A stretch of DNA of 64,000 bases, from contig NZ_JAUSYS010000001.1 of NCBI RefSeq assembly GCF_030817015.1, positions 4,526,001 to 4,590,000 of the forward strand, given 5' to 3'. Of the stretch, positions 9,439 to 40,810 are shown piece by piece. The number at the start of each line of letters is the position of its first letter. The first letter of the stretch is position 1. The notes under the pieces were generated by a model that saw only the letters and a program-made list of their open reading frames with translations, did no database searches and had not been told where the DNA came from. Origin of the DNA: Arthrobacter sp. V1I7 (GTDB lineage: Bacteria; Actinomycetota; Actinomycetes; Actinomycetales; Micrococcaceae). Made by a program: the position numbers and the translations under genes.

Positions 9439-9526
9439 GGTTTTTCCTCCAGGTGTGCGGGGTGCTGCCTGTTGCTCGGGTGGAAGTGCGGTGACCCGGT
9501 GGAACCGGGGGTGGTGCAGGGCGTGA

Positions 9527-12684: not shown

Positions 12685-12689
12685 GTTCG

Positions 12690-14219: not shown

Positions 14220-14324
14220 CGTCAATTCTCACTGACTGGTAGTACTTAGACCGCCTGCGGCTGCAGGGGTCTACGGGAAGGGCGGCGGCCGGCCTCGACG
14301 GCGGGACGCCACCCCTCACCGTAA

Positions 14325-15761: not shown

Positions 15762-16517
15762 TTACAGCGCCGTCAGCCCGCCGTCGATCGTGAACATTCC
15801 GCCGGTGGCGTAGGCAGATTCGTCGCTCGCGAGGAAGACCATGATGCCTTCGACGTCGGCGGCCTTGCCTGCCCTGCCAAGCATGGTGGAGTTGACGAGA
15901 CCGGCCCGGCTTGCGGGGTCGTCGGCAATGGCCTGTACCAGCGGGGTTTCCGTGTAGCCGGGGACTACTGTGTTCACACGGATGCCGGCGCTGGCGTAGT
16001 CGGCCGCGACCACGCGGGCTAGTCCGTGGACGCCCGCTTTTGAGCTGGTGTAGGCCGTAAAGGTCTGCCCACATCCGACGACCGCCGTGGGGCTACCCGT
16101 GCAAATGATGGAGCCGCCCCGGCCTTCCAGGGCGCGTACGGCGTGCTTAAGCGTAAGGAATGCGCCGCGCTGGTTCACGGCTACGGTCTTCTCCCAGACG
16201 TCCAGGTCGAGGTCACCGACCCTTGCGTCCTGGCCGAAGAGCTGGACTCCGGCGTTGGCGACGACGATGTCAAGCTGCCCCTCGCCGGCGATGGTCGCAT
16301 AGACGGTTTCGACGCTTGCCTCGTCGGAGATGTCCATCCGGAGGGCTGCGGCACCGGACGCCCCGGTGGCTGCGGCGGCCCTGACGGCGGCGTCGACGTC
16401 GATGTCGGCGAAGTAGACGCGGGCGCCTTCTGCAATGAAGCGCTGGGCGACAGCCAGGCCGATGCCCGATCCGGCGCCGGTTATCAGGGCTGCTTTGCCT
16501 GCGAGCCTATTGGACAT
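15762..16517 (-). CDS. SDR family oxidoreductase, probable sugar dehydrogenase
   Basis: 251 aa, ATG at 16517 after AGAGGA. Classical short-chain dehydrogenase: TGAGSGIG nucleotide loop at residues 14-21, NAGV, catalytic serine in CTGSPTAVVG, YTSSK (Tyr and Lys of the active site), and an MFTIDGGLTAL end. It is the last gene of the 18-kb glycan operon, 27 bases after the apionate-lactonase-like gene. Aldose 1-dehydrogenase followed by lactonase is a common pairing, so it may oxidise a released sugar to its lactone. In characterised apiose pathways the dehydrogenase is of the Gfo/Idh/MocA family instead, so the substrate is open. Confidence 0.8.
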   Translation of the reverse strand: MSNRLAGKAALITGAGSGIGLAVAQRFIAEGARVYFADIDVDAAVRAAAATGASGAAALRMDISDEASVETVYATIAGEGQLDIVVANAGVQLFGQDARVGDLDLDVWEKTVAVNQRGAFLTLKHAVRALEGRGGSIICTGSPTAVVGCGQTFTAYTSSKAGVHGLARVVAADYASAGIRVNTVVPGYTETPLVQAIADDPASRAGLVNSTMLGRAGKAADVEGIMVFLASDESAYATGGMFTIDGGLTAL

Positions 16518-16544
16518 CCTGGTCCTCTTTCCTGGTGGGTAGTT

Positions 16545-18302
16545 TCAGCTGAGCGGACGGGCAGTTTCGGTCCACGCCGGAAGGTCGATGGTCCCGGCAT
16601 GGCCGTATTCCAGCCGCACTGCCACGCGTACCGGCTTGGGCGTGAGGTTCGCAGCGAACAGCACGACGCCGGACCCGACCCTGACGGGATAGACGATCAT
16701 GCCAGGCGTATGCCCCTCGGCTTTGAGCACCCCGGCTCCGCGCAGTCCGGCGAGCCGAGTCAGCAGGCTGCCGGCGGGGGTATCGGCGCCACCGTCGGTG
16801 CGGAGACCCCTGGGACCGCTGGCCTCGAAGTAGCTCACGGATTCCACCCCGGGCATGGTGAGGGAAGCGATGCTGCCCAGCATCCACGCGGCGGTGAAGT
16901 CTTCTCCCTGGAGCGGGTCGGAGGCCATGCTTTCGGCTTTTTGTCGGCACTCGGCGCCGCCGGTGGAGACCGCGTTGAAGCGGGGTTTGAGGGTGATGGG
17001 ACCGATGTGCAGGGCAGTACCGGAGCCGATCCGGAGCGCATTGAGTGCTGTTTGCCGCTGCATCGGCAGCGTCTCGACGATGTGCATCACTTCGGAGGCA
17101 TGCATCTGCGGCGTGATGCTGTACGTCATGGCCTGCGCCTCGGGAAGTGACGGCGCTGTTCGATTGAGTTCGGTGAAGTGTGAGCGGGCGCCGGCCAGCA
17201 GGGTCCCGGCGAAGCCGCGCCGTTGCGCTTCCCCTTGCAGTTGCCGCCACAGAGCCGGCCCGGTGGCGTGGCTCTCGGAGCTGAAAGCGCCGAGCCGGCT
17301 GACCTGGTCCAGGGGCAGCAGGTCCAGGAATCCCGCAAGGGATTCGGGTCGGCGCACGGATATCCGCACATCCAGAGGCACACCCAGTTCCGCGGCCTGC
17401 CGATGGGCCTGCCGGATCTCTTCCGCAGCCGCTGCCCGATCGTCCCCGGAAAGTTCGACGAGCAGCGATGCCAGGCCGGGCACCGGGGCGAGGGTTGCGG
17501 GTGATCTGGAGGCGGAAGTGCCAAGCGCCGGGACCGTGCCGACCGTTTCGTGGTGCACAGTCAGTACGGCAGGGCCGGTGTCCGGCTGGCGAGGTTCCGG
17601 CTGCCGCCTCTCCGGACCCTGGGCTGCGGGTTCGGCCGTGAGGCGGATACTCTGTCGGATGCGGTCGCCGGCCCGCACCTCGACGGGGAAGGGGCGGGAC
17701 AGCGGTGTGCTGTAGGTCTTGAAGGATGCGTCCGTCCAGTTGCGCTGGTCTTCGGTTTCGAATGTATCTCCGCTGAACTGCAGCCGGAAGTTCGTCCCGT
17801 CCCGTTCCCAACACATGGCCGCAACGTCCCGGAAGGGCTGATGCGGGCTGATCTCCACGGGAAATGCCAGGCGGGTGCTGGTCCGCTCGGGCGAAGTGAC
17901 AGTGAGCGCCCGTCCCGCATCGTCCGGACGGTGCAGGACCACCAGGCCAATGCGGTTGCTGCTGAAACTGCCGGGCGCAACGCCGTCGAAGCTGAGGGAG
18001 AGTTCACCGCCGCAGAGCCGGAGCATCAGGTCCGCGCGGTAGCGGGCGTTGAAGCCGGCAAAACCGATGGTCAGCCGGAGTGTGGTGGTCCCTGCCTCGT
18101 CGCTACGGGTGATCGATTCGACGTCGGGTGTCAGGGTTCTCCAGTCGTGGTCCCGGACAACCAGACGGATGCCCCGGAGCACGGGGTATCCGCCGTATTC
18201 GATGTCCGCCACTTCGTCGCCGCGCAGCTGCAGACGCCAGGCGCCGGCTTCGATGGTCTCGGAGGGGGCGAAAAGCCGCAGGCGGTTACCGGCGTCGATC
18301 AC
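16545..18302 (-). CDS. D-apionate lactonase-like protein (ApnL family)
   Basis: 585 aa from GTG at 18302, with GAAGGAC upstream; no signal peptide. The N-terminal ADIEYGGYPVLRGIRLVVRDHDW and the central RNWTDASFKTYSTPLSRPFP segment match my recollection of the ApnL family, whose studied members open D-apionolactone to D-apionate. The second half resembles a TIM-barrel-like domain (SITPQMHASEVMHIVETLPMQ). The size matches the family (about 590-610). Neighbours strengthen the call: directly upstream lies an apiosidase-like gene, directly downstream an SDR dehydrogenase. A general lactonase for other sugar acids is the main alternative. Confidence 0.6.
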   Translation of the reverse strand: MIDAGNRLRLFAPSETIEAGAWRLQLRGDEVADIEYGGYPVLRGIRLVVRDHDWRTLTPDVESITRSDEAGTTTLRLTIGFAGFNARYRADLMLRLCGGELSLSFDGVAPGSFSSNRIGLVVLHRPDDAGRALTVTSPERTSTRLAFPVEISPHQPFRDVAAMCWERDGTNFRLQFSGDTFETEDQRNWTDASFKTYSTPLSRPFPVEVRAGDRIRQSIRLTAEPAAQGPERRQPEPRQPDTGPAVLTVHHETVGTVPALGTSASRSPATLAPVPGLASLLVELSGDDRAAAAEEIRQAHRQAAELGVPLDVRISVRRPESLAGFLDLLPLDQVSRLGAFSSESHATGPALWRQLQGEAQRRGFAGTLLAGARSHFTELNRTAPSLPEAQAMTYSITPQMHASEVMHIVETLPMQRQTALNALRIGSGTALHIGPITLKPRFNAVSTGGAECRQKAESMASDPLQGEDFTAAWMLGSIASLTMPGVESVSYFEASGPRGLRTDGGADTPAGSLLTRLAGLRGAGVLKAEGHTPGMIVYPVRVGSGVVLFAANLTPKPVRVAVRLEYGHAGTIDLPAWTETARPLS

Positions 18303-18325
18303 GTGGTGTCCTTCGCTGTGAAGTA

Positions 18326-20113
18326 TCAGGACCCGGCTCCGTCCCGGACGGCGCGGATCCTGACGGCGATGAACTGCCTGCCGGGGAGCTCCAGCCGGAA
18401 CCGGCCCTGGACGGTGTCCGGCAGGGTTTCAATGGTCATGTTCCAGGTGTCAATGATGTCCACGGCATAGTGGTGCCCGGCGGGCATCACGAAGTTCCGG
18501 TAGGTGGGCTGGTTGAAGCCGAAGTAGCTGATCTCGTACTCGTGGCGGATGCCGGCGGTGGGAACATCCCAGCCGCCGGGCAGCGGCTCGAGGAACCCGC
18601 GCGGTGTCTCCTCGAGGATGCGGCGCAGGAACGCGATGCGGCCCGGGCTGCTGCCGTGGAGTTCCCCGCCCTTGGACCACCAGAGGGTGTCCTCCGGGTG
18701 CACATACGTTTCGCCGTGGCCGACATAGCCGCCGCGTACCGCGCCTTCCCAGAACCGCCGGGTCATTTCCTCGCCGGTGATGTTGCCCCAGCCCTGGTCG
18801 ATGTTGCCCTCGTAGGCGCACTCGTCGATGACCACCGGCTTCTGCCAGCGGTCCCGCCACTCGCCCGTGAACTCGGCAGTCTTGTGCACGTCCTGGCGCT
18901 GAACGCTGCTGTGCGTGATCCACGGACGGCTGTAGTCGTAGAAGTCCCGGCAGTTGTGGATGGAGAGTAGGTGCCCGCTGGGGTCGTTGACCTGGACAAT
19001 GCCGGCGAAGCGTTCCCAGTCCTCGGTGGTTTTGCGGAACAGCAGGTCGTATTCGTTGGCGAGGGACCACCAGATATTGCGGCGCGAGGCCAGCCGGGCA
19101 ACGACGTACTTCAGGTAGCGGTCGTCCTGGCCCGGGGTCATGGTGGCGAAACCCCAGCGGTCATAGGCGTGGAACAGGATGAGGTCCGCTTCGATGCCGA
19201 GTTCGGCCAGCTGGCTGATGCGCTGTTCGAGATGGCGGTAGAACGCAGGGTTGGGCCGCTCGTAGTCGAAGCCGGCCGCCAGGGAACCTTCGAACGGGTA
19301 CTGATCCGGCTCGTTCTCGTTGAACAGGTAGGACTTGGGGAAGACGCACATCCGCATCTTGTTGAACGGTCCTGCGGCCAGTGTGTCCAGGGTCTGCTTT
19401 TCCAGGGCATCGCCCTGATGGGCCCAAGCGTAGGCCGTGGTGCCGACGGGCAAGTACGGAGTTCCATCCCCGTAGGCGAAGTGGAAGGTGTTGGCCACCT
19501 GTACTACGCCTCTGGCTCCCCCTGCAGCCTCGCCGGCAATGAATGAGCCGGTGATTCCGTCCAGCGAGCGGGCGTTACTGGAGGTGGCGAAGGTCCAGTC
19601 GCCCGCCTCGCGGACGAGGAGCCTTACCTTGTAGCTGCCGTTTCCGTCGTAGAAGCCAGGAACGCTGAGCGCCTTGCCTGACGGCGCGGTGAAGTCCGCC
19701 CGGAGGTCGACGTCCGTGAACGGGTTGCCGTGCGATGGCCCGGAGAGAGCGAGTTCGAAGCATTCCTGCGCTGCCGCCGTCGTCGGGAAAGAAGCAGTGG
19801 CGCTGCCGGGTTCCACCGCCTCCGGCTCGTAGCCGGCGGCCGGGGCAGGAACGTCGGCGGCGGCCGCCGCCGCGCGCTGCGCCACGGGATCCTCCGGTTC
19901 CAGCTCGCCGATGAGGCGGAGGATTTCCGCAACCTCCGCGGGTTTTCCCTGCAGGGCTTCTTCAGTTCCCAGGATCAGGCCCACCTCATGGAAGTAGAGC
20001 GTGTGAAGCAGGGGGTTGTTGGTCAGGGTTGGAACCCGTTCGCGCAGGATGCGGTTGCCTTCGGCGTGCCCCATAACGAAGTACAGCGGGCTCTCAGCGG
20101 TGAAAGTGGTCAT
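18326..20113 (-). CDS. DUF5060/DUF4038/DUF5605 glycoside hydrolase, apiosidase-like
   Basis: 595 aa from ATG at 20113. An N-terminal helical stretch of about 75 residues (SPLYFVMGHAEG...) is followed by a beta domain like DUF5060 (CFELALSGPSHGNPFTDVDL), then a TIM barrel of the DUF4038/GH140-related type, and a C-terminal beta domain like DUF5605 (SYFGFNQPTYRNFVM). WWSLANEYD provides the likely acid/base glutamate and VVIDECAYEG the likely nucleophile. GH140 enzymes release D-apiose from rhamnogalacturonan II. The family also has uncharacterised members, so apiosidase is a proposal supported by the ApnL-like neighbour. No signal peptide: cytoplasmic, acting on imported oligosaccharides. Confidence 0.65.
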   Translation of the reverse strand: MTTFTAESPLYFVMGHAEGNRILRERVPTLTNNPLLHTLYFHEVGLILGTEEALQGKPAEVAEILRLIGELEPEDPVAQRAAAAAADVPAPAAGYEPEAVEPGSATASFPTTAAAQECFELALSGPSHGNPFTDVDLRADFTAPSGKALSVPGFYDGNGSYKVRLLVREAGDWTFATSSNARSLDGITGSFIAGEAAGGARGVVQVANTFHFAYGDGTPYLPVGTTAYAWAHQGDALEKQTLDTLAAGPFNKMRMCVFPKSYLFNENEPDQYPFEGSLAAGFDYERPNPAFYRHLEQRISQLAELGIEADLILFHAYDRWGFATMTPGQDDRYLKYVVARLASRRNIWWSLANEYDLLFRKTTEDWERFAGIVQVNDPSGHLLSIHNCRDFYDYSRPWITHSSVQRQDVHKTAEFTGEWRDRWQKPVVIDECAYEGNIDQGWGNITGEEMTRRFWEGAVRGGYVGHGETYVHPEDTLWWSKGGELHGSSPGRIAFLRRILEETPRGFLEPLPGGWDVPTAGIRHEYEISYFGFNQPTYRNFVMPAGHHYAVDIIDTWNMTIETLPDTVQGRFRLELPGRQFIAVRIRAVRDGAGS

Positions 20114-20123
20114 CGGTGCCTTC

Positions 20124-23019
20124 TCAGTTCGGGAGTTCTTGGCGTGTGCGGGAGGGTGCGGCGGCGCGGCGGTCATTGAGGGCAGCCAGCGCGGCGGCGA
20201 TGTCCTTCTTGACGGAGGGCGGGGTGAAGATCAGGCTCTGGTCCAGGGTCGTCTGCCGATACCAGACGGTGTCTTTGCGGAATGCCGCCGCGCCCGCCGG
20301 ATCCTGGGCTTCGATGGCCTGCCACACCGCGGCATAGGCCTGCGGGTCGTCCATGATGTCCGCGAGCGGGGTGTGCAGTGAAGCAGCGGCGGTTTCCGCG
20401 GCGGACTCCGTGGCGGGCACGTCCCAGCGGTGCTGGCCCGAGCCCACTTCGAACTCGGCGGAGCCGTCCGGAAGCGAGACCACGGCGGCGGTGCCCGGGC
20501 GGCACGGTGGCTTCCACCAGGACCCTGTCCCCTGCGCGCTTCCATGCGACCCGGGCCAGCCCGTACGGCGTCTCGTGCGACGTCGAAGCGTGCTGGAGAC
20601 TGGCGAGCGGCCGCGGCGCGATGCGCACCTTCCGGTACCCGGGCGCCGCCGGGGCCAGCCCGGCAACAGTGCGGTGCATCCAGTCGGCGATGGCGCCCAG
20701 CGCGTAGTGGTTGAAAGACGTCATTTCGCCGGGGTTGACGCTGCCGTCTTCCAGGATGGAGTCCCAGCGTTCCCAGATGGTGGTGGCGCCGTGCGTGACG
20801 GGGTACAGCCAGGAGGGGCACTCGGTCTGGGTGAGCAGCCGTTCGGCAGCGTCCAGGTGCCCGGTAGCGGTCAGGGCATCGGCGATCAGAGGTGTGCCCA
20901 CAAACCCGGTGGCAATCCGGTACCCGCCGAGGCGGGCGAGCTCCGCGAGCCGGCCGCCCATGGCCCGGCGCTGCGACGGATCGGTGCTGATGCCGAACAT
21001 CAGGGCCAGCGAGTAGGCGGTCTGGGCGTCCGAGACGATCCGGCCGGAGGGCGTTACGTATTCGGCCAGGAACGCCTGCCGGGTGTCTTCGGCGAGCACC
21101 GCGTACTTGGCGTGGTCGGCGTCGGAGCCGAGGATGGCTGCGGCCTTGGCCACCAGGTCCAAGGACCGGAAGAGGTAGGCACTGGCAACGATGTCCCCGT
21201 GCGTCCTGGCAGCGCCGGGCTTGTCCGGGGGTGCGGCGGGATCGAGCCAGTCGCCCAGCTGCATCTGGCCCTGCCAGAGCCCGGAACTGTTCCGGACCTT
21301 CAGGAGGGCATCCGCCCAGTCCCGCATGCTGGCGTACTGCCGGCGGAGCAGCCCCGTATCACCGAACCTCTCGAACAGCACCCAAGGGACCACGGTGGCC
21401 GCGTCGCCCCAGGCGGCCACCGGCGATTCGAGCATGCCCAGCACGGACGGAACGATGATAGGCACCACGCCGTTGCGGTGACCCTGCTCGAGGGCGAGGT
21501 CCTCCAGCCAGGAACCGAGGAAGCCCAGCGTGTCGTACAGGTAGCTGGCTGTTGGGCTGAAGACCTGGATGTCACCGGTCCACCCCAGCCGCTCGTCACG
21601 TTGGGGGCAGTCGGTGGGGAGCGCGAGGAAGTTGCCACGCATCCCCCACAGGGCGTTCTCGTGCAGGCGGTTCAGCAGCGGGTCTGAGCACGCGAACCAG
21701 CCAGTGCGGCGCATGTCGTTATGGATGACGACGGCGGCGATCGCCGCCGGGTTTAGCGCACCGGGCCAGTTGTCCACCTGGGCATAGCGGAAGCCGTGGA
21801 ATGTGAAGCTCGGCTCCCATTCTTCCTCCCCGTCACCGGCGAGCGTGTACGTGTCGGTGGCGGCCGCCTGGCGCAGCGGACGGAGCGACAATTCGCCGTC
21901 TTCGAGCACTTCGGCATGCCGGAGGGTGATGATATGGCCGGCCGCGCCGCTGACCCGGATCCGCAGCCTCCCCACGAGGTTCTGGCCGAAGTCCAGCACC
22001 GTGGCGCCGGAGGGCGTGGTCAGCACTTCCACGACCGGCAGCTCCTCGATCCGGCGCACGGGAGGGGCGATGGCCGGGGTGGCTGCCGCCCATTTCCCGG
22101 CATCAACCGCGGCAGGATGCCAGTGTGCGTCGTCGAAGCCGGGTTGGGACCAGCCGGCCTCCGCGCGCCGGGCGTCAAAGGACTCACCGGCGTAGATGCC
22201 GCTGGAGACAAGCGGTCCGGCCGTGGTGGCGCGCCAGGTCGGGCTGCTGGTCACGGTTTCCCGCGTCCCGTCGGCGTATTCGAGGTGCAGCTCCACCTTT
22301 ACGGAAGGCTGCTCACCGTAAAAAGGCTTGGCGAAGCCGTGGAAGCCGTACTTTTCCGTGAACCAGCCGCCGGCAAGCCAGACTCCGATGGCGTTGGCGC
22401 CCGGGGTCAGGAGTGCTGTGACGTCCGTGGTTTCGTGGTTGAGCCGGTCCGCGTAGGCCGTCCAGCCCGGCTTGAGGACCTGGTCGTCCACCTCCGTGCC
22501 GTTGATTTCGGCCTGGTACACGCCGTGGGCGGTGGCAAACAGGGTGGCTTTGGCCAGCCCGTCGCCCACCGTGAATTCGTTCCGCAACTGGCCGGGCCGT
22601 CCCAGCGGCGCCTGCTTTCCGGCCGGGACGGGGAGACTGATCGCCGTGGCCTGCCACCGCCCGTCCACAAAGCCGCCCACCAAAGTCAGGGGCTCGCTCC
22701 AGTCGGTGGTGTCGCCGTCGTTCCCGGTGATCCGGACTTCCACTTCCACCTGCTCGCCCGCGGCGATGGCCTTAAAGGGCCACTCCACCAGCACGGACTC
22801 CGTGCCGCAATGCACCCGGGACTCCGCCGTTCCGCCACGCGTGAGCCGGAGTTCGGCCTGGGTCTGTTGCCAGTCGGTGCTGTCGGTGGCTGTTATCCAG
22901 CTGAGCCGGGGCCGCGGGTCTGCCACGAACGGGGTGTCCGTTCGGTACTCTGCGCTGAACCGGCTGACGGCGGTCTGCTGGCGGATGGCTGACTGCGGTG
23001 TCAGGGACGTGGATGTCAC
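20124..23019 (-). pseudogene. Alpha-L-rhamnosidase GH78, frameshifted near the 3' end
   Basis: Start GTG at 23019 (TSTSLTPQSAIRQQ), no signal peptide. Domain order matches GH78: N-terminal beta domains, an (alpha/alpha)6 barrel with DCPQRDERLGWTGD carrying the catalytic acid, and a C-terminal beta sandwich. At about 20494-20500 (CCCGGGC) the frame is lost after VEATVPPG. Removing one base restores TAAVVSLPDGSAEFEVGSG and a helical tail ending at 20124, giving 964 aa; the uncorrected frame runs in nonsense to 20173. The length 20124-23019 is 3n+1, as expected for a one-base insertion. It would remove terminal rhamnose from imported glycans. The catalytic barrel is intact, so partial function or a sequence error are both possible. 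Confidence 0.85.
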
Positions 23020-23078
23020 GGAAGACCTTTCGGGAAACAGCGGGTGAGGGAAGGCTGGGCGGACGGGCGTGTGGTTCC

Positions 23079-24605
23079 CTAGTTGGGCTCGCGTCCGGAA
23101 CTGCGGAACCAGTGGAAGGCCACCGTGCCGCTGCTGGCGAAGACGCCCGCCACCCGTCCGGTGAAGGACGCGGCGGTTTCGGCCGAGAGGTACCGTCCGT
23201 CCAATTCGGCCAGGGTGACCGGTTCGCCGCCGATGACGGCCTGCAGCGCCACGGTGTCCGAACTCAGGTGGCCGAACCCGGCGCCGCCGGCGGGCTGGCG
23301 GGTTGCGATCCGGAGTTCGAGGGGGCCTCCGGGTACCTGGCGGGTCCACGCCTGTTCGATCGAGGACACCCGGGCCCGGGCGGTGACGGTGGTCCCGTTG
23401 ACTTCGATCGAGTAGTGGTGGGACTCGTCGTAGCGGACGGCGAGGCCGCCGGCGTTGCCCTTCCCGTCACTGGGACCCTGCTCCTCGGGGGAACCTGTGT
23501 CCACCAGTGCGGCGATCGTCTCCACCTGGTACCGCTGGCGGCGGCCCAGGAACGCGGGCCGGGCGTCATCCAGGCCGGGGCCGTCGCTGGTTACGGTCAG
23601 CCGGCCGCGGATCTTCTCCGTGGAGGCGAACGCGCCGGGAAAGCGCCGTACGGCGATCCAGCCGCCGTCGAGCTCCGCGTCCACGAAGTCATCCTCGAAC
23701 TCGCCGCCGGAGCGCGGATTCAGGATGACAGGTTCAACCACCGGCCAGCCGTCCTCCCAGGTGACCGGGGTGATGAAGGTTTCCCGGCCCAGCGCCGAGA
23801 AGGCGCGGGTCATGCCCCTGGGCCGCATGCCCAGGAGCACCATGGCCCAGCCGCCGTCGGGGGTCTGCACGAGGTCACCGTGGCCCGTGTTCTGGATAGG
23901 GCGGTCGGTGCTGCGGGCGCTCAGGACGGGGTTGGCCGGGTTGTTCTCGAACGGGCCGGTGGGGGAGGTTCCCCGGGCGATGCTGACGCTGTGTCCGCGC
24001 TCGGTGCCGCCCTCGGCGATCATGAGGTACCAGTAGTCGCCGTGCCGGTAGAGGTGCGGGGCTTCGGGGAACATCAGTCCGGTGCCGGACCAGACGCTGC
24101 GGGGTTCCTCCAGGGCCTTGCCCGATTCCAGGTCCACGCGCACCTGGAGGATGCCGCGGTGCTCACCGATGTTTCCGGTGACGGTGTCCAGCCCGGAGTA
24201 GGTCAGGTAAGCGGTGCCGTCCTCGTCCCAGGCAAGGTCCTGGTCGATGCCGACCGCGCCCTCAATTGCCAGCCCGTCGCTCCACGGGCCGGCGGGGTCC
24301 TTAGCCGTGAACACCAGGGTCCCCCGGGCCATGGCGTCGGTGACGGCAACATAGAACAGACCATCATGGAAGCGGATGGTGGGCGCCCACGCGCCACCAA
24401 GGGTGGGCACGTCGCGGGAGTCCAGTTGCCCTTCGCGGTCCACCACGTGCCCGACCCGGGTCCAGTCGACCAGGTCGGTGCTGTGGTACACCGGGATGCC
24501 GGGCAAGTATTCAAAGGTGGACGTGGCGAGGTAGTAGTCCTCCCCCACCTTGACGATGCTGGGATCCGGGTTGAAGCCCGAAATCAGGGGGTTGGGCAGG
24601 TTCAT
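23079..24605 (-). CDS. Glycoside hydrolase family 43 (beta-xylosidase/alpha-arabinofuranosidase)
   Basis: 508 aa, ATG at 24605 overlapping the GH3 stop by ATGA. Five-bladed propeller: general base Asp14 in GFNPDPSI, transition-state Asp in GIDQDLAWDEDG, general acid Glu in MFPEAPHLYRHG. The C-terminal beta-sandwich (residues about 310-500, DDFVDAELDGGWIAVRR) is the usual GH43 xylosidase/arabinosidase-type domain. No signal peptide. It should remove arabinofuranose or xylose from oligosaccharides inside the cell. Translationally coupled to the GH3 gene. Confidence 0.88.
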   Translation of the reverse strand: MNLPNPLISGFNPDPSIVKVGEDYYLATSTFEYLPGIPVYHSTDLVDWTRVGHVVDREGQLDSRDVPTLGGAWAPTIRFHDGLFYVAVTDAMARGTLVFTAKDPAGPWSDGLAIEGAVGIDQDLAWDEDGTAYLTYSGLDTVTGNIGEHRGILQVRVDLESGKALEEPRSVWSGTGLMFPEAPHLYRHGDYWYLMIAEGGTERGHSVSIARGTSPTGPFENNPANPVLSARSTDRPIQNTGHGDLVQTPDGGWAMVLLGMRPRGMTRAFSALGRETFITPVTWEDGWPVVEPVILNPRSGGEFEDDFVDAELDGGWIAVRRFPGAFASTEKIRGRLTVTSDGPGLDDARPAFLGRRQRYQVETIAALVDTGSPEEQGPSDGKGNAGGLAVRYDESHHYSIEVNGTTVTARARVSSIEQAWTRQVPGGPLELRIATRQPAGGAGFGHLSSDTVALQAVIGGEPVTLAELDGRYLSAETAASFTGRVAGVFASSGTVAFHWFRSSGREPN

Positions 24606-27136: not shown

Positions 27137-28579
27137 GCGGGGGCGCCTGCGGTGACGGGTGTGGCTGCTTGTGCGGTTGCTCCGCGAACGGCGGCGATGG
27201 TGTCCCGGTACCAGTAGGCACTCTGCTTGGGGATGCGGGTCTGGGTGCCGTAGTCCACATAGACCAGGCCGAAGCGCTTGTCGTACCCCTCGGCCCACTC
27301 GAAGTTGTCCATGAAGGACCAGGCGAAGTAGCCCCGGACGTCCACACCATCGGCGATCGCCTCACCCACGGCGGAAATGTAACCGCGGAGGTAATCGATG
27401 CGTTCGGGGTCGCGGACCTCGCCGTTCGGGTCAACGTAGTCGTGGAACGTCACACCGTTTTCGGTGACGTAGAGGGGCAGCCCGGTGTACTCGCTGGCTA
27501 CCCGCTTGAGCACCGCCTTGAGGGCTTCGGGAGTGTTGGACCAGCCGAAGGACGAGGGTGCCGGCTGCACGTGGGTCCAGTTCGGGGCGGCCCCATCGCC
27601 GGGACCCGCGGAAACGAGCATGTTGGTGTAATGGTTGACTCCGGCAAAGTCACCAGGCGCGGAGATGATGGCGAGGTCGCCCGGCTGGACCAAGTCCCTG
27701 GGCCCGGCATCCTCGCCCGTGGCTGTCAGTCCGTACCGGCCGTAGGCGGCGATGGTCGTGTCGGCGTAGCGGCCGCGGTAGACGGGATCCAGGAAGATCC
27801 GATTGCTGACGGCATCCCAGTATTCGGTGGCCTGGCGGTCTGCCTCGGTATCGGTCGCCGGGTTCAGGTTGCCGACGATGTTGGTAATGCCCACTTTGGC
27901 CTTGGGGCGGCGGGCGCGGAATTCCCCCAGTGCCAGGCCGTGGGCCAGGAGCAGATGGTGGGCGGCGGGAACGGCGAGGCTATCGTCCTTGAAGCCGGGG
28001 GGCCTGCATACCCCACGAGTGGCCCAGGAAGGCTGCGCACATGGGCTCGTTGATGGTGATCCAGTGCTCGGCGAGATCACCGAGGGCCTCGGCGACGAGT
28101 CCGGAATACTCGCCGAAGCGGTACGCAGTGTGCCGCGCCGGCCAGCCGCCGTCGTCCTGCAGCGCCTGCGGCAGGTCCCAGTGGTACAGCGTCACGTACG
28201 GCGTGATGCCGCGGGCGGTGCAGCCTTCGAGCAGCTCCCGGTAGAAGCGGACACCTTCGGGGTTGAGTGGACCCGTCCCGCTGGGCTGCAGGCGGGACCA
28301 GGACAGGGAAAGCCGGTACGCGGGGATGCCGAGCTCGGCCATCAGATCGAGGTCGGCTTCCCAGCGGTGGTAGTGGTCGCAGGCGATATCGCCGTTGTCA
28401 CCATGAATCGTGGTGCCGGGCTGGTGGGAGAAGGTGTCCCAGATGCTTTTGCCGCGGCCGCCCTCGTTGACGGCGCCTTCGATCTGGTAGGCCGCTGTGG
28501 CCACGCCCCAAGCGAAATCGGCGGGAAAAGTGGCGCCGGAGGAGAGCCCCGGGTGTGCGGTCGCTGATTGCGTGGTCAT
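27133..28579 (-). pseudogene. Beta-glucosidase GH1, split by a frameshift
   Basis: Corrected product 481 aa, ATG at 28579. The first frame holds [15 protein letters not shown] and the acid/base TINEP; it breaks at a six-G run (27997-28002 on the plus strand), giving a stop a few codons later. Removing one G restores [17 protein letters not shown] and a second frame with the nucleophile motif YVTENG and the closing SFMDNFEW. The interval length is 3n+1, as for one inserted base. Both catalytic glutamates are in different frames, so no active enzyme would be made if the sequence is right. It is the first hydrolase gene after the ABC transporter (63-base gap). Confidence 0.88.
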
Positions 28580-28642
28580 TGGCTCGCCTTTCTGTTGTCT
28601 GGATTCTGTGGTGCTGCGCGTCCGGCGGATGGGGCGGCGCCC

Positions 28643-29503
28643 CTAGGCCACGCCGGCCTGTACGTCCTGCTCGTGCTGGATTGCCGCCAGGCGATGGCGG
28701 TCGGCCCGTCGTTGGGCCTGCCGGTCCGGATCCGGCACGGGCGCGGCCATGAACAGCCGCTGGGTGTAGGGGTGTTCCGGTTCGCCGGTGACTTGGTCCC
28801 CTGCGCCCCATTCCACGATTTCGCCGTGGTACATGACTGCCACGCGATGGCTGAGATACCGGACCACCGCGAGGTCATGGGAGACGAAGAGGTACGCCAC
28901 TCCGGTGCGTTCCTGGATTTCGAGGAACAGGTCCAGGACCCGGGCCTGGGTGGAGAGGTCCAGGGCGGAAACCGGTTCGTCGCAGACGACCAGCTTCGGG
29001 TCCAGGGCAAGCGCCCGGGCGATTGCGATGCGCTGGCGCTGCCCGCCGGAGAATTCCCTCGGCAGCCGGTGAACGGCGTCGTGTGGCAGCCGCACCTGGT
29101 CCAGGAGCTCCGCGACCCGCTTGTTGGCTGCCTGGCGTTCCACCTTCCGGACGGTCAACGGCTCGGTCAGGATTTGTTCGATGGTCATGGAAGGATTCAG
29201 CGAGGTATACGGGTCCTGGAACACCACCTGGATTTCGTGGCTGAGCTCCTTGCGCTGGGCCCGGCTGGCTTTGGAGATCTCCTGCCCGCGATAGCTGATG
29301 CTGCCGCCGGTTACGGGAGCAAGACCCAGTACGGCGCGGCCCAGGGTGGTTTTTCCGGAACCGGACTCACCCACCAGGCCCACGGTCTCGCCGGGGCGGA
29401 CGTCCAGGGAAACGCCCCTGAGCGCCTTGAACGGCTCCCTGCGGAAACCCTTGAGGGGATATTCGACGACGACGTCCCGGACGTCGAGCAGTGTTTCGGT
29501 CAT
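28643..29503 (-). CDS. Oligopeptide-type ABC transporter ATPase (OppF/DppF)
   Basis: 286 aa, ATG at 29503 overlapping the upstream stop (ATGA). Walker A GESGSGKTTLG, signature FSGGQRQR, Walker B KLVVCDEPVSALD, and the C-terminal YTQRLFMAAPVPDPDRQ region typical of the oligopeptide/dipeptide class. Works with the permease-ATPase fusion and the second permease. In actinobacteria this class often imports plant oligosaccharides, and the glycoside hydrolase genes immediately downstream point the same way. Confidence 0.88.
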   Translation of the reverse strand: MTETLLDVRDVVVEYPLKGFRREPFKALRGVSLDVRPGETVGLVGESGSGKTTLGRAVLGLAPVTGGSISYRGQEISKASRAQRKELSHEIQVVFQDPYTSLNPSMTIEQILTEPLTVRKVERQAANKRVAELLDQVRLPHDAVHRLPREFSGGQRQRIAIARALALDPKLVVCDEPVSALDLSTQARVLDLFLEIQERTGVAYLFVSHDLAVVRYLSHRVAVMYHGEIVEWGAGDQVTGEPEHPYTQRLFMAAPVPDPDRQAQRRADRHRLAAIQHEQDVQAGVA

Positions 29504-31296
29504 AGCGATACTCCGTTCAGGGAGAGAAGCGGTCCGCGGGGCGCCGTGTCCTCGAGGATCGCGTCGAGCAGCAGCCGGGTGTAGGGGTGCCGCGCGTCGT
29601 TGAAGATGGCCCGCACGGGACCTGTCTCCACGACCCGGCCCGTCTGCATCACGGTCACGCGGTCACACAGGTCCGCCACGACGCCGAAGTTGTGGGTCAC
29701 AAGGATGACTCCCATGTTCAGTTCGGCCTGGAGTTCGCGGAGCAGGTCGAGCACTTCGGCCTGCACCGTGACATCGAGCGCCGTCGTGGGTTCGTCGGCG
29801 ATCAGCAGGTCCGGCTGGCACGAGACGGCCCCGGCTATCAGCACGCGTTGCGCCATTCCGCCGGAAATCTGGTGCGGGTAGGCGTTAAAGGTCCGCTCGG
29901 GGTTGGGAATCCCCACTTTGGCCAGGAGTGCGAGGGCCCGCTTCCGGGCGTCCGCCTTCGATATCCCCAGGCAGACGCGCATCGGCTCCATCAGCTGGCT
30001 GCCGATGGTGAACGCGCCGTCCAGGTTGCTCATCGGCTCCTGCGGGATGTAGGCGATACGCTTCCCGCGGATCTTGGTCATCTCCTTCTCCGACAGGGAG
30101 GCCAGGTCCTTGCCGTCGAAGACGATCGAGCCGCCCGTGACGCGGCCGCCTTGTGGGAGAAGCCGGAGGATGGAGAACGCTGTCTGCGTCTTCCCGGAGC
30201 CGGATTCGCCAACGATCCCGTGGACTTCGCCGCGGCGGACGGTCAGGCCCACATGGTTGACGACGTGGGTGGTGGAGCCGTCCGGCTGGTCGTAGCCGAC
30301 ACCAAGGTCGGTGACTTCCAGGAGGATCTCGCCGGCAGTATCGGAGGGCTCCTCGGGGTGGACGACGGCGGCGGCGCCGCGCTGCTCGGCGGCGGAGGCC
30401 GCATCGGTGAGCGTCGCCTTGCGGCGCTTGACCGGCCCGCCGCTCCGTTCAAGCTCGTCGCGCATCGCGTTGGCCAGCAGGGTCAGGGCGACGCACACCA
30501 GCCCGATCAGCAGGGCGGGCCACAGGACCAGGGTTGGGACCTTGTAGAGGTTAACGAAGCCGTCGTTGAGCATGCTTCCCCAGGTGGGGATGTTCAGGTC
30601 GCCCAACCCCAGGAATTCGAGGCCCGCCTGGATGGCGATGGCAATGCCCAGGATCATGGCGGACTGGATGATCACAGGCGCCCGGACCACTGTAAGGATG
30701 TGGCGGCCGATGATCCTGAAGTCGCCCAGCCCGGAGACCCGGGCGGCGTCGACGTACAACTCGTTGCGCACCGCGGTGACTGAGGCGTAGACGAGCCGGA
30801 AATAGGCCGGGGAGAGCATGATGCCGAAGATCATCATGGACAACCACATCGACGGGCCCAGCACGGCGCGTGCGGCCAGAAGGACCACCATTCCCGGCAG
30901 GGCCATCAGCAGGCCGGTGAGCCAGGAGGAGACGGAATCGAACCAGCCGCCGTAGTAGCCGGCAATCAGTCCGCCGGTCACCCCCAGCACCATGGCCACC
31001 GCCAGCGCCAGGAGCGCGCCGGCGAGGCTGAACTGCCCGGCGAATAGCAGACGGCTGTAGACGTCGCGGCCGGCGCTGTCCGCTCCCAGCCAGTGCCCCG
31101 GCCCCGCCTTGGCCAGGACGGCCTGCAGGCTCGCCTGACCTGGATCATGGGTGGCCAGCAATGGTGCAAGGATGGCCGCCACGGCGACCAGCACGAGGAC
31201 CAGGAGGGACGCTGCGCCGGTGGGATGTGTCAGGAGCCGGCGGAACAGGGAAACCTTCGCTGCCGGGGTGGGACGTGCGATGGGAGTATCGATCAT
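29500..31296 (-). CDS. Fused permease and ATPase of an oligopeptide-type ABC transporter (DppC-DppD)
   Basis: 598 aa from ATG at 31296, overlapping the upstream permease stop by ATGA; codons upstream of this in the same frame belong to the other permease gene. Residues 1-275 are a DppC-like permease with about six membrane segments (LGADSAGRDVYSRLLFAGQ; ARVSGLGDFRIIGRHIL coupling helix). After a linker of about 45 residues, residues about 320-598 form an ATPase: GESGSGKTQTA, YPHQISGGMAQRV, DLLIADEPTTALDV. The fusion fixes permease-to-ATPase stoichiometry. No stop or frameshift is seen at the junction, so the fusion is real. Confidence 0.88.
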   Translation of the reverse strand: MIDTPIARPTPAAKVSLFRRLLTHPTGAASLLVLVLVAVAAILAPLLATHDPGQASLQAVLAKAGPGHWLGADSAGRDVYSRLLFAGQFSLAGALLALAVAMVLGVTGGLIAGYYGGWFDSVSSWLTGLLMALPGMVVLLAARAVLGPSMWLSMMIFGIMLSPAYFRLVYASVTAVRNELYVDAARVSGLGDFRIIGRHILTVVRAPVIIQSAMILGIAIAIQAGLEFLGLGDLNIPTWGSMLNDGFVNLYKVPTLVLWPALLIGLVCVALTLLANAMRDELERSGGPVKRRKATLTDAASAAEQRGAAAVVHPEEPSDTAGEILLEVTDLGVGYDQPDGSTTHVVNHVGLTVRRGEVHGIVGESGSGKTQTAFSILRLLPQGGRVTGGSIVFDGKDLASLSEKEMTKIRGKRIAYIPQEPMSNLDGAFTIGSQLMEPMRVCLGISKADARKRALALLAKVGIPNPERTFNAYPHQISGGMAQRVLIAGAVSCQPDLLIADEPTTALDVTVQAEVLDLLRELQAELNMGVILVTHNFGVVADLCDRVTVMQTGRVVETGPVRAIFNDARHPYTRLLLDAILEDTAPRGPLLSLNGVSL

Positions 31297-32234
31297 GACA
31301 GCCGAACTTTCGGATTGAGCCAGCCTTGGGCGAGGTCGATGATGAGGTTGACGGCAACCACGATGGCGGCCGTAGCGACGACGACCCCCATCACGACGGG
31401 GATGTCCCCTTGACCCGTGGCGGCAACGGTGATCTGCCCCAGGCCGGGCAGCGCGAAGATCTGTTCTACAATCACGGCCCCGCCCAGCAGGCCGATGAAC
31501 TGCACGGCGAGGACGGCCAGGGCCGGACCGCCAGCGTTGCGCAGCACATGCTTGTAGACAACCCGGTTGAAGGAGAGGCCGCGGGCACGCAGCGTGCGGA
31601 CGTAGTCCTGCCGGAGGGCGTCGATCAGGGAACCGCGGACCTGCTGGACCACGGAAGCGACACACCCGATCGAGAGGGCGATGATCGGCAGGGTGACGGT
31701 GGAGGCCCAGCCGCCGAATGACGTCGTGATGGGAATATAGCCGGTGGCCTTGAACCATTTGAGGTTCAGGGCGAAGAGGGAGACGAGCCCCAGCGCGATC
31801 AGGAAGCCCGGGATGGCGTGACCCAGCACCCCCACGGACTGGACCACCCGGTCCACCCAGCCGCGCCGGACAGCCGCCCAGACGGCAATGACCACAGAGA
31901 CTGCGGCGGCGATGATGGTGGCGCCCAGCACCAGCGAGATGGTGACCGAAACCCGGCTGGTGACACCGGTGGTGACCAGCTGGCCGTTGAACCAGGACCG
32001 GCCAAGATCGCCGGTGACGGCACTCGTCAGCCAGTCCCAGTACTGGACCAGGAGCGGTCGGTCCAGGCCGAGCTGTGCGGCTTTCAGCGTTACCTGCGCT
32101 TCGCTGGCGGTAGGACCGACAATACGCCGGGCGATGTCGCCGCCGCCGGCATACAGCAGCAGGTAAGCGACCGTTGTAATGACGAACAGCAGGAGGACGC
32201 CGGAGAGCAGGCGCCGCAGCACGAATTGGTACAT
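31293..32234 (-). CDS. Oligopeptide-type ABC transporter permease (DppB)
   Basis: 313 aa, ATG at 32234. Six predicted membrane segments. MYQFVLRRLLSGVLLLFVIT opens the protein, GLDRPLLVQYWDWLTSAVTGDLGRSW is the conserved loop after segment 1, and RQDYVRTLRARGLSFNRVVYKH is the ATPase-coupling motif. Pairs with the fused DppC-DppD protein. Gap of 77 bases to the binding-protein gene upstream, 4-base overlap downstream. Confidence 0.9.
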   Translation of the reverse strand: MYQFVLRRLLSGVLLLFVITTVAYLLLYAGGGDIARRIVGPTASEAQVTLKAAQLGLDRPLLVQYWDWLTSAVTGDLGRSWFNGQLVTTGVTSRVSVTISLVLGATIIAAAVSVVIAVWAAVRRGWVDRVVQSVGVLGHAIPGFLIALGLVSLFALNLKWFKATGYIPITTSFGGWASTVTLPIIALSIGCVASVVQQVRGSLIDALRQDYVRTLRARGLSFNRVVYKHVLRNAGGPALAVLAVQFIGLLGGAVIVEQIFALPGLGQITVAATGQGDIPVVMGVVVATAAIVVAVNLIIDLAQGWLNPKVRLS

Positions 32235-32311
32235 CGAAAGTTCCTTAGGGGAGTTCCTGGAGCTGCCGGTTCCGGATCACGGTGAGGGGGTCCGGAACCG
32301 GCAGGTGTCCG

Positions 32312-33832
32312 CTAGGAGGCGGGAGTGAAGGACCAGATGAACGGGTAGGCATTGCCCGTCTGGACCTCGACGTTCGTCTTGGCGTCGGTGACGAAGCTGG
32401 ACTGCGGGCGGTACCACGGCGCGAACCAAGCCTGCTCCACGATGTACTTGTTCAGTTCCTTGGCCGCGGTCTTCTGCTCGTCCGCGGAGCCGACGTGGAT
32501 CGCGTTGATCAGCTCATCCGCTTTTGGGTCCTCGTACTTGTACGGGTTCCACGGTGCGTTCGGGGCGAGCTTCATGTTGATCAGCTGCCAGTCGGACTGC
32601 TGCTCCAGAATCATGTAGCTCACGCCGTACTTCGGTGCCAGGAGGTCGGCGATGAAGTTGTTGCCGGTGTCCGTGAACTCGGCGGTAATTCCGACGTCCT
32701 TGAGCTGCTGGGTGATCAGCGCCGGGATCGTGTTGCCCAGCAGGGTGGAGGAGGGCAGCTTCAGAGTCAGCCCGCTTGCGTAGCCTGCCTCGGCCAGGAG
32801 CGCCTTGGCTTTGGCCGGGTCGTAGGAGTACCGCGCGTCCAGGGACTGGTCATAGGCGTCCGACGACGTCGGGAACACCTGCGTGGTCAGCTCGCCGTGG
32901 CCCTGGCCGATGGACTCCAGCATTGCCTTCGTGTCGAAGGCGTAGTTCAGTGCCTGGCGGACGCGGACGTCCTTGAGCGCCGGGTTGGTGGTGCCGGCGC
33001 GGTCAAAGAGGAGCAGACCGGACCAGTTCAGCTGGAGCGGGTTGACCTTGTACCCCGCGGCTTCAATTTCGGTCAGGGTGTTGTTGTCGATGGTGTTGGC
33101 GGCGTTCAGCTGGCCGGACTTGATGGCGTTCAGCAACGAGGTCTGGTCGCCGTAGACGTTGAGGACCAGGTTGTCGTAGTGGACCAGGCCCTTGTCCCAG
33201 TACTCCGGGTTGCGCTTGTAGCTGTAGGAAGTGCCCGTGACGGTGGCGGCGGTGTCCAGAACGTACGGTCCGGAGCCGACCGGCTTGGTGGCGATGTCCG
33301 GGGCGGCGAACGATGCCGGACTCTGCATGAAGGACGCATCCTTGGACAGGTAGTTCAGGAACGCCGGGTCCGGGGCGGAGAGCGTCAGCTCCAGTGTGGT
33401 GGCATCCACCGCCTTCGCTGTCGCAAGTGCCGCGAGGAACTGCGCGTCCGGGGACGTGCCTGCCTTGAACCGATCAAGGTTCTGCTTGGCCGCATCGGCG
33501 TCGAAGGGCGTGCCGTCTGTGAACTTCACGTCGTCGCGGAGGCTGAGGGTCAGAACGGTCTTGTCGGCGTTGTACTTCCACTCCTTGGCCAGCATGGGCA
33601 CCAGCGTGCCGTCCGGCTTCATCCGGATCAGGGTGTCGTACACGGCCTGGTAGAAAGGCGAGAGGTTGGCGAATTCGGACTGGTCCGCGGCAAACGTCTT
33701 GGGAGCCAGCAGGGTGCCGAGGGTGAGGGTTGCGGAGGACTGCTCCTGGCTTGCGTCTCCGGCGGCGGAACATCCGGTGAGGCCCAGGGCAACGGCAGCA
33801 ACGAGGGCGGCCATTCGCTTCGATCGGAACAT
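32312..33832 (-). CDS. Oligopeptide-type ABC transporter substrate-binding lipoprotein
   Basis: 506 aa, ATG at 33832. Signal peptide with lipobox LTGC, lipidated Cys21. SBP_bac_5 fold: LSPFYQAVYDTLIRM, DDVKFTDGTPFDADAAKQNLDRF, and VGSGPYVLD. Ligand not readable; by context a plant oligosaccharide or glycoside. First gene of the long minus-strand operon, divergent from a TetR gene with an imperfect palindrome between them. Confidence 0.88.
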   Translation of the reverse strand: MFRSKRMAALVAAVALGLTGCSAAGDASQEQSSATLTLGTLLAPKTFAADQSEFANLSPFYQAVYDTLIRMKPDGTLVPMLAKEWKYNADKTVLTLSLRDDVKFTDGTPFDADAAKQNLDRFKAGTSPDAQFLAALATAKAVDATTLELTLSAPDPAFLNYLSKDASFMQSPASFAAPDIATKPVGSGPYVLDTAATVTGTSYSYKRNPEYWDKGLVHYDNLVLNVYGDQTSLLNAIKSGQLNAANTIDNNTLTEIEAAGYKVNPLQLNWSGLLLFDRAGTTNPALKDVRVRQALNYAFDTKAMLESIGQGHGELTTQVFPTSSDAYDQSLDARYSYDPAKAKALLAEAGYASGLTLKLPSSTLLGNTIPALITQQLKDVGITAEFTDTGNNFIADLLAPKYGVSYMILEQQSDWQLINMKLAPNAPWNPYKYEDPKADELINAIHVGSADEQKTAAKELNKYIVEQAWFAPWYRPQSSFVTDAKTNVEVQTGNAYPFIWSFTPAS

Positions 33833-33897
33833 CTTTGGTCCCTTTCACGATCAGTGGCAGTCCATCATGGACGGCCATTGAGGAAGACCGTAACATG

Positions 33898-33921
33898 AAA
33901 ACCGAGTGGGTACTAGGTTTT
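33898..33921. promoter_or_regulatory. Probable TetR operator in the divergent region
   Basis: Arms AAAACCGAGT (33898-33907) and ACTAGGTTTT (33912-33921) pair at nine of ten positions around a GGGT spacer. Located 66 bases before the binding-protein start and 96 before the TetR start. The layout (divergent regulator, single palindrome) is typical of TetR control. Confidence 0.55.
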
Positions 33922-34016
33922 TGTTTGCGAGCTTGAAACGTTGCCAATTGTGACGGCGCCCACATCGGACGACCGGTTCGGAATCTGGTCGAAATTCGCG
34001 TTGTTAGGGTGGGGTC

Positions 34017-34655
34017 ATGACAGAAACAGTGCACAGCGCCTCCGCGGAAACGCCGCGCCGAGGCCGCCCGCGGGGCAGCTACGCGAAAACCGAAGCGCGC
34101 CGTCAGGAAATCCTGAACGCGGCGTTCGAGGTCTTTTCCGCTTCCGGTTACCGGGCGGGCTCACTGAAGGACGTCGCGGACAAGGTGGGGCTCAGCCAGG
34201 CCGGGCTGCTGCACCACTTTCACAGCAAGGAAGCCCTGCTGGAGGCACTCCTGACCCTGCGCGACGAGCAGTCTGCTGCCCGGACCGGTGCCCTGACGGC
34301 CACGGGCGCGGATCTGCTTCGCGGAATGGTGGAATTGACCCGCTACAACACCACTATTCCGGGCCTGGTGGCGCTTTACTGCGCGCTGTCGGCGGAGGCC
34401 ACGGATCCGGAGCATCCGGCCCATCAGTACTTTCTCAACCGGTACAACTGGGTGCGGGGCGTGATGACCGAGGCGTTCGCCGAGATGGGCCGGCAGGGCA
34501 GCCTCCGGACCGGAATCGCGCCGGAGGCGGCCGCCCGGCAGATCATCGCACTCATGGACGGGCTCCAGGTCCAATGGCTCCTCGACAATGACTCGGTGGA
34601 CATGCCTGCCGAAGTGGCCTCGTATCTGAATGCGGTCACGACCGCGGCGTTCTAA
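34017..34655 (+). CDS. TetR family regulator, likely controls the glycan operon
   Basis: 212 aa, ATG at 34017. N-terminal helix-turn-helix at about residues 28-72 (RQEILNAAFEVFSASGYRAG, then LKDVADKVGLSQAGLLHHF). The C-terminal ligand domain contains TRYNTTIPGLVALYCALSAE, an arrangement common among TetR regulators of actinobacterial carbohydrate loci. Divergent from the 18-kb ABC/glycoside hydrolase operon, and the only regulator next to it. Likely a repressor released by a sugar or glycoside. Confidence 0.85.
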   Translation: MTETVHSASAETPRRGRPRGSYAKTEARRQEILNAAFEVFSASGYRAGSLKDVADKVGLSQAGLLHHFHSKEALLEALLTLRDEQSAARTGALTATGADLLRGMVELTRYNTTIPGLVALYCALSAEATDPEHPAHQYFLNRYNWVRGVMTEAFAEMGRQGSLRTGIAPEAAARQIIALMDGLQVQWLLDNDSVDMPAEVASYLNAVTTAAF

Positions 34656-37111: not shown

Positions 37112-37155
37112 GTTTTCTCCTGCGGAAGGTAAGGGGCGACGGCGGGTGGCGCGGC

Positions 37156-39578: not shown

Positions 39579-39619
39579 CAAATCCTCCAATAGGTTCCGC
39601 AGCGTTGCGAACCACTCCA

Positions 39620-39635
39620 TTGTTAGCGCTAACAA
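39620..39635. promoter_or_regulatory. LacI-type operator before araB
   Basis: TTGTTAGCGCTAACAA is a perfect 16-base palindrome, 42 bases upstream of the araB start. It is in the short region between araB and the 3' end of the lacI gene. Confidence 0.85.
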
Positions 39636-39687
39636 ACATACTGTCAAGAAATTTCTCGCAAGGAGTTACTTGGCGGAGGGTCCGTCC

Positions 39688-40710: not shown

Positions 40711-40798
40711 GCGGGGCACCTTCCCTCCGTATGCAGCCGCGCCGCCTGATCTCCGGACGACCCGAGGATTTCGACGCCCGCAACTCCGCGCCGCTACT

Positions 40799-40810
40799 GT
40801 TAGCGCTAAC
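40799..40810. promoter_or_regulatory. LacI-type operator before the regulator gene
   Basis: GTTAGCGCTAAC, a 12-base palindrome with the same core as the araB operator, 89 bases upstream of the regulator start. Supports autoregulation. Confidence 0.8.

Follow-up and report, generated by a model that had tools for sequence, protein, structure and literature searches.

An oxidative D-apiose pathway of Proteobacteria is said to have been described by Carter et al. in 2018, and its route reportedly runs via 3-oxo-isoapionate and L-erythrulose to erythrose 4-phosphate. In the available parts of two reports, the oxidative route comprises a dehydrogenase, ApnL, ApnO and then either OiaK/OiaX or OiaC (PMC6302742, PMC11747546), and for one strain a lactonase, dehydrogenase, oxidoisomerase, kinase and decarboxylase are given with EC numbers, together with growth on D-apiose (PMC11747546). 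Apiose occurs in plant pectin and in over 1,200 plant metabolites (PMC10602602). Here, we describe a minus-strand operon (33832-15762) in a 64-kb stretch of DNA (the window; G000:C1:4526001-4590000, from a 5.03-Mb genome in two contigs) whose proteins have their nearest named homologues in Arthrobacter. The operon encodes an oligopeptide-type (Opp) ABC importer and a set of glycoside hydrolases (GHs), and ends in genes for an ApnL-like protein and a short-chain dehydrogenase/reductase (SDR). Sequence comparison makes it probable that the operon enables the cell to use small plant glycosides carrying apiose in its cytoplasm, with an SDR acting as the D-apiose dehydrogenase. Open-access listings, whose scope excludes most subscription journals, gave no description of an actinobacterial route of apiose use or of this combination of genes, in line with an earlier model-made annotation of the window (the original prediction), which knew of no such actinobacterial locus.

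The locus shares with the Proteobacterial pathway the ApnL family, an ApnO homologue and later steps that would pass through 3-oxo-isoapionate. It differs in that the Proteobacterial pathway has a Gfo/Idh/MocA dehydrogenase, whereas an SDR and a distant ApnL branch are found here; moreover, OiaK and OiaX are unmatched in 20 further loci of the order, and apiose is apparently freed intracellularly from imported glycosides. With an SDR where the known pathway has another dehydrogenase, and with this combination of genes, the locus is a new variant of the apiose pathway, each part of which has known kin. A Pantoea plasmid cluster, MFS-DAK-TIM-TIM barrel-ApnO (L099), resembles the D-apionate cassette described below in its families and, except for RpiB, in its order (ApnO, 63%); unlike in the window genome, neither a glycosidase nor ApnL is annotated in its 25-kb stretch. 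The glycoalkaloid deglycosylation clusters of Arthrobacter S41 and Glutamicibacter S2 likewise combine, in related bacteria, GH3 and GH78 for a plant specialised metabolite, but consist of three genes including GH2, and an apiose pathway is unmentioned in the accessible part of that report (PMC9597252). In the D-apiose cluster of E. coli ST131/STc14, which is associated with growth on D-apiose, the known first enzyme is also missing and other oxidoreductases are proposed; there, two of them are thought to replace the isomerase of another apiose route, and the accessible text mentions no glycosidase operon (PMC13001218).

The ApnL-like protein and the SDR as a two-gene module

The operon ends with the gene for the ApnL-like protein (16545-18302, minus strand), a candidate D-apionolactonase of an actinobacterial branch with a predicted model at pLDDT 89, followed by the SDR gene (15762-16517, minus strand; PF13561, 189 bits), a candidate D-apiose 1-dehydrogenase from its conserved motifs and its adjacency to ApnL. 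With NF049900, for which the curated cut-off is 750 and the canonical proteins of L101 and L100 reach 770 and 925 bits, the ApnL-like protein scores 190 bits, and it is therefore a relative and not a member by the curated test. The ApnL motifs FExEDQR-W-DAS-KTY, ELNR, H401 and R441-x-N443 are invariant in 11 aligned rows, including three homologues paired with Gfo/Idh/MocA genes. The ApnL-like protein has these motifs but occupies a separate long branch of the ApnL tree. From this tree, four of 39 named loci (L064, L068, L077 and L078) were dropped because they have no full-length predicted gene, and L070 was not entered. In a proposed GH-like (beta/alpha)8 scaffold of this branch, two glutamates, E378 after strand 4 (44/44 rows) and E493 at the end of strand 7 (39/44), would occupy the places of the clan GH-A catalytic pair. 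Meanwhile, the SDR motifs TG...GIG, GSPT and Y...K are invariant in 59 sequences, some of them from overlapping stretches of one genome, and TGxxxGIG and Ser-Tyr-Lys are presumably the catalytic residues. Identity to the window protein within the genus is mostly 74-86% for the SDR versus 40-66% for ApnL.

In 40 stretches, each up to 20 kb, taken around ApnL-like genes in relatives, with the predicted proteins grouped into families, the SDR gene sits closely after ApnL wherever it is present. Across the genus, the SDR lies within 300 bp of ApnL in 30 of 33 copies, second fragments of split genes not being counted; the three misses are one SDR gene adjoining the second fragment of a split gene (G475), one at a contig end (G359) and one beside an apiosidase-like gene (G416). 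Counted from ApnL, 30 of 47 genus copies have an SDR gene within 400 bp, and 28 of 47 have ApnO within 15 kb. A search for Gfo/Idh/MocA dehydrogenases (E<=1e-8) gave no match in the window, nor in 32 kb surrounding the putative D-apionate cassette of the same genome; among the other loci searched it gave two weak matches (24-28%; L073 and L144), and in three plasmid loci ApnL adjoins a Gfo/Idh/MocA dehydrogenase gene. The window copy is the sole ApnL-type match in its whole genome. Judged by motifs and linkage, the SDR, to which the original prediction had assigned no role, is likely the D-apiose dehydrogenase.

The pair is found in import operons of at least three types, namely the Opp-GH operon, an operon of a CUT1 ABC importer with an apiosidase-like gene (L051-L054) and a second Opp operon (L065-L067). 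The window ApnL groups with four copies from CUT1-type-importer operons and two others (support 99/97) though its GH neighbours resemble those of other lineages, which suggests module exchange; the SDR tree, from which L109-L124 were left out as repeat genomes, gives the window a different, weakly supported position and offers no confirmation. The parallel Opp operon of L065-L067 contains GH78, GH43 and an MFS gene flanked by two apiosidase-like genes, and ends with ApnL and SDR. In L062, L063, L081 and L083, an ApnL-like gene has no adjoining SDR and lies amid the recurring families f12, f14, f19, f20 and f24.

Linkage and co-occurrence with a putative D-apionate cassette

Many of the 40 stretches contain a divergent cassette, whose protein families f2, f3, f5, f6, f7, f8 and f9 have 22, 22, 20, 20, 19, 18 and 17 members. 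It encodes an ApnO-like oxidoreductase, an OiaC-like TIM-barrel protein, homologues of TIM and RpiB, a DAK-type kinase, an MFS transporter and a GntR regulator. The window genome holds a complete cassette (C1:520813-527966; 76-95% identity to the copy in L072), about 0.83 Mb from the operon if the chromosome is circular, with an ApnO homologue at G000:C1:527109-527966 (92% to the L072 protein); the best SDR near this cassette is 37% identical to the operon SDR. The ApnO-like protein is homologous (43.9%) to the product of a gene adjoining oiaK in the canonical apiose cluster of Paraburkholderia, in which OiaK (NF042436, 822 bits) and ApnL (770 bits) exceed the curated cut-offs of their models, but the OiaX-like protein falls short of its own (444 bits, cut-off 700). 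An NCBIfam scan gave a curated name to neither the ApnO-like nor the OiaC-like proteins. In the source annotations, D-apionolactonase is the name of five of 120 listed ApnL homologues and 3-oxoisoapionate decarboxylase that of five of 120 listed TIM-barrel homologues, the other named rows being mostly sugar phosphate isomerase/epimerase or hypothetical protein. By homology, the cassette would fit the conversion of D-apionate via 3-oxo-isoapionate and L-erythrulose to erythrose 4-phosphate. In L122 (3297-4712), a partial ApnO gene adjoins a partial apiosidase-like gene, both apparently remnants.

Across 206 genomes of the genus (thresholds E 1e-3 for ApnL-like, 1e-40 for ApnO, 1e-75 for SDR and 1e-60 for apiosidase-like proteins), matches were found to ApnL-like in 44, ApnO in 71, SDR in 32 and apiosidase-like in 27, and these sets are nested: all 32 genomes with the SDR also have ApnL and ApnO, and all 27 with an apiosidase-like gene have ApnO, 26 of them with ApnL and SDR as well. 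ApnO occurs without ApnL in 35 genomes, and ApnL without the window-type SDR in 12. In the order, an ApnL-like match was obtained for 31 of 396 genomes; 28 of these belong to other genera, and we examined 20 of the 28 in one stretch each, all from other families. The SDR (59-67%) is present in 15 of the 20, and 15 contain both ApnO and the OiaC-like protein; at E 1e-12, the listed matches include no canonical dehydrogenase, no OiaK and no OiaX. In L140, the genes run MFS-DAK-RpiB-OiaC-ApnO-SDR-ApnL, all in the same direction. In five loci (L139, L141, L144, L149 and L154) the stretch contains SDR and ApnL but no ApnO, and L153 has a partial SDR at the stretch edge. An Opp importer lies beside the cassette in three of the 20 (L137, L138 and L152), with TetR-SBP5-Opp in L137 and L152. 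It is this linkage of ApnL-SDR to the cassette in relatives and other families, together with the nested co-occurrence, that leads us to read the operon as one for apiose; along with the Opp importers beside the cassette, this evidence supports the import-first scheme of the original prediction and its apiose part.

Operon organization and conservation in relatives

Upstream of the pair, all genes on the minus strand, the importer consists of an SBP_bac_5-family solute-binding lipoprotein (SBP5; 32312-33832; PF00496, 238 bits; lipobox-like N-terminus), which is 87-91% identical in ten relatives with a one-piece gene, an OppB-type permease (31293-32234; PF00528, PF19300), an OppC permease and OppD ATPase fused in one open reading frame (ORF; 29500-31296; PF12911, PF00528, PF00005) and an OppF-type ATPase (28643-29503; PF00005, 122 bits). 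The NCBIfam Opp/Dpp matches of the fused ORF are all under cut-off; with a family 5 binding protein, two permeases and two ATPases, the set has the composition of an Opp/Dpp importer. It is followed by GH1 (27133-28579), GH3 of the beta-glucosidase or alpha-L-arabinopyranosidase type (24602-27136; PF00933/PF01915/PF14310), GH43 of the beta-xylosidase or alpha-L-arabinofuranosidase type (23079-24605; PF04616, 287 bits; PF17851), a GH78 alpha-L-rhamnosidase (20173-23019; PF17389, 415 bits; PDB 6gsz alpha-L-rhamnosidase, 750 bits) and a protein with DUF5060, an apiosidase-like barrel and DUF5605 in the domain scan, a candidate beta-apiosidase (18326-20176). Of the eleven genes originally proposed, ten are as described; GH1 is not one ORF but is split by a frameshift, which sits at a run of C near 28000. 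The ORF at 27980-28579 covers profile positions 3-182 of 453 and that at 27133-28080 positions 179-449, and GH1 is unbroken or absent in relatives (no GH1 match in L112 and L113). The break may be either a base-call error or a recent lesion. The junctions are spaced as first stated, with gaps of 77, 63, 59, 23 and 27 bases and 4-base overlaps at the remaining five, counted from the listed starts. The hydrolases had also been predicted to have no signal peptide, and N-terminal hydropathy (not SignalP) agrees, as it finds no signal-like stretch in them and a lipobox-like start in SBP5.

The comparison of gene order that the original prediction had named as a check shows the importer and GH order kept in 11 relatives (L109-L116, L118, L120 and L089), and the cluster is therefore not due to chance. 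GH1-GH3-GH43-GH78-apiosidase-like is found in L109-L111, L114-L116, L118 and L120, whereas L112 and L113 have no GH1 and L089 has no GH78. Identity to the window operon is 79-95% in ten relatives, and L120 is fragmented, its pieces ranging from 46 to 93%. L117 is arranged differently and its SBP, Opp and GH3 genes have diverged; the contig of L119 is short. In 10 of the 11 relatives the SDR lies on the far side of TetR, and eight of those ten (not L111 and L113) have the cassette in the 20-kb view of the same genome; altogether, cassette genes share one stretch with the operon in 9 of 11. In L075, a CUT1 operon lies in between. In L089 the ApnL-SDR pair occupies the operon end, the same place as in the window; beyond TetR lie GntR, MFS and the first part of the kinase gene. 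Among these operons, only those of the window and L089 have the pair at their end, which in the window is the 3' end, and in the window genome the cassette lies elsewhere.

Regulation and proposed mechanism

A divergent TetR-family gene (34017-34655, plus strand; PF00440, 54 bits), in the same position in relatives, encodes a candidate repressor. Between it and the importer, the palindrome AAAACCTAG-N6-CTAGGTTTT (33898-33921, one mismatch) is a candidate TetR operator owing to its conservation: it is present with 0-2 mismatches in all 11 TetR-importer intergenic regions compared, occurs once in the 5.03-Mb genome at <=3 mismatches, before the operon, and is absent from 100 shuffles of the window. 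In 1.35 Mb of the window and partly overlapping stretches, it is confined to loci with this TetR-SBP5 pair. The cassette carries a palindrome of its own, GTCAACCGGTTGAC, so that operon and cassette appear to be under separate control in this genome.

In the mechanism that we propose, SBP5-OppB-OppCD-OppF would import the glycoside or its oligosaccharide, from which cytoplasmic GH1, GH3, GH43, GH78 and the DUF5060/DUF5605 apiosidase-like enzyme would trim glucose, arabinose, xylose, rhamnose and apiose. The SDR would oxidise D-apiose to D-apionolactone and the ApnL-like protein would open the lactone to D-apionate. The distal cassette, through its ApnO-, OiaC-, DAK-, TIM- and RpiB-like proteins, would then convert D-apionate to 3-oxo-isoapionate, L-erythrulose and onwards towards erythrose 4-phosphate. 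TetR would repress the operon via the 33898-33921 palindrome until a pathway ligand appears, and freed L-arabinose could enter the adjacent araBAD operon.

Substrate and alternative explanations

GH3 scores 753 bits against NF052330 and 472 bits against NF041610, both under cut-off, and 663 bits against PDB 7pjj, a beta-glucosidase; the top PDB matches of GH43 are 5z5d beta-xylosidase (298 bits) and then 5joz arabinofuranosidase (263 bits). The apiosidase-like protein passes PF13204 (64 bits, cut-off 26.5). Compared with the GH140 beta-apiosidases 5msy and 8t9w, it differs in its extra DUF5060 and DUF5605 domains and at the profile level: a 27-row profile matched 4n0r alone at E<=0.01 and neither GH140 structure, although its predicted model appears to come near the GH140 structures.

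It is conceivable, if unlikely, that this is a general operon for arabinose, xylose and rhamnose glycosides, in which the apiosidase-like enzyme acts on another beta-pentoside and ApnL-SDR is a hitchhiker. An araBAD operon adjoins it, GH3 and GH43 may be arabinosidase or xylosidase, the apiosidase-like family is very large (7333 matches among 7999 candidates scored) and probably mixed in function, and the pair stands at the operon end solely in the window and L089. Against this, ApnO accompanies the apiosidase-like gene without exception in the genus (27/27), and operon and cassette share a stretch in most of the relatives (9/11).

We find it quite unlikely that the substrate is rhamnogalacturonan II (RG-II) fragments, which the original prediction had offered beside apiosyl flavonoids and saponins. 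RG-II oligosaccharides contain Rha-Api, arabinofuranose and methylxylose, in which the apiosidase BT1012 splits Api off GalA (PMC7939467). What makes RG-II less likely is that the operon offers no enzymes for the other RG-II sugars, as its domain scans contain no pectin lyase, galacturonidase, methylesterase or fucosidase family; the lack of a signal-like N-terminus in the hydrolases also speaks against it, and GH1 with a beta-glucosidase-like GH3 would better suit plant glucosides. Small apiosides such as saponins thus seem the likelier substrate from the enzyme families, so that the apiose-bearing glycosides of the original prediction stand and its RG-II option recedes. For example, platycosides bear apiosyl, xylosyl, rhamnosyl and arabinosyl residues at C-28 and glucose at C-3 (PMC9952785, accessible part), sugars that correspond to those of the hydrolase set (glucose, xylose, rhamnose, arabinose and apiose); we offer this as a suggestion only. 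The target glycoside varies between relatives, as some have no GH1 or GH78.

It is very improbable that the SDR and ApnL-like protein oxidise a different sugar, for instance L-rhamnose, to the lactone and the acid. In favour of this, GH78 lies within the operon and the SDR scores 139 bits against the L-rhamnose dehydrogenase model (cut-off 400), but many other SDR models outscore that model, and the pair occurs with ApnO/OiaC-like genes where no GH78 match is seen (L140, L145 and L148) and in the GH78-less operon of L089.

Several points weigh against the use of small apiosides by way of an SDR-type dehydrogenase. In this genome GH1 is broken, and the pair and the cassette lie far apart, seemingly under separate control. 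The ApnL-like score is far under the curated cut-off, and the ApnO and OiaC labels were assigned from homology, synteny and a few source names. The linkage has gaps: 17 of 47 listed genus ApnL copies have no SDR within 400 bp, 8 of 44 genus genomes with ApnL have no ApnO match, and 10 of 43 apiosidase-like copies are separated from ApnL, SDR or ApnO by more than 20 kb or lie on a different contig. Outside the genus, four of the 20 loci (L143, L147, L150 and L151, of one genus) have ApnL, ApnO and the OiaC-like protein without the SDR, and no Gfo/Idh match either. Finally, the co-occurrence counts ignore kinship among the genomes.

A wider proposal, for which doubt slightly outweighs belief, is an actinobacteria-wide apioside system in which an SDR would replace Gfo/Idh/MocA, a separate ApnL branch would use a GH-like (beta/alpha)8 scaffold, DUF5060/DUF5605 proteins would form a second apiosidase family and the pair would move between at least three kinds of import operon. 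The locus offers three enzyme candidates, an apiose dehydrogenase of the SDR type, a divergent apionolactonase and a non-GH140 apiosidase, which may be useful for trimming saponins and flavonoid apiosides, and it suggests a way in which bacteria of the root zone may live on the defence glycosides of plants.

Neighbouring genes

An Rfam 5_ureB_sRNA match (92.6 bits, 47373-47662) lies on the strand opposite the ORF at 46072-47817 and, we presume, may merely mirror conserved urease coding sequence. Genes for a biotin-dependent carboxylase, CT_A_B/CT_C_D, MFS and LamB/YcsF proteins are found at 4615-10285, a cluster that we take to resemble the 5-oxoprolinase type. Downstream of the SDR is a ChvE-type monosaccharide ABC importer (11398-15449), which exceeds the cut-off of the ChvE model (523 versus 460 bits). 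Upstream of the glycoside operon, LacI, araB, araD, araA and aldose epimerase genes lie on the minus strand (34674-40926), and this arabinose operon abuts the glycoside operon, ending 18 bases from the TetR gene.

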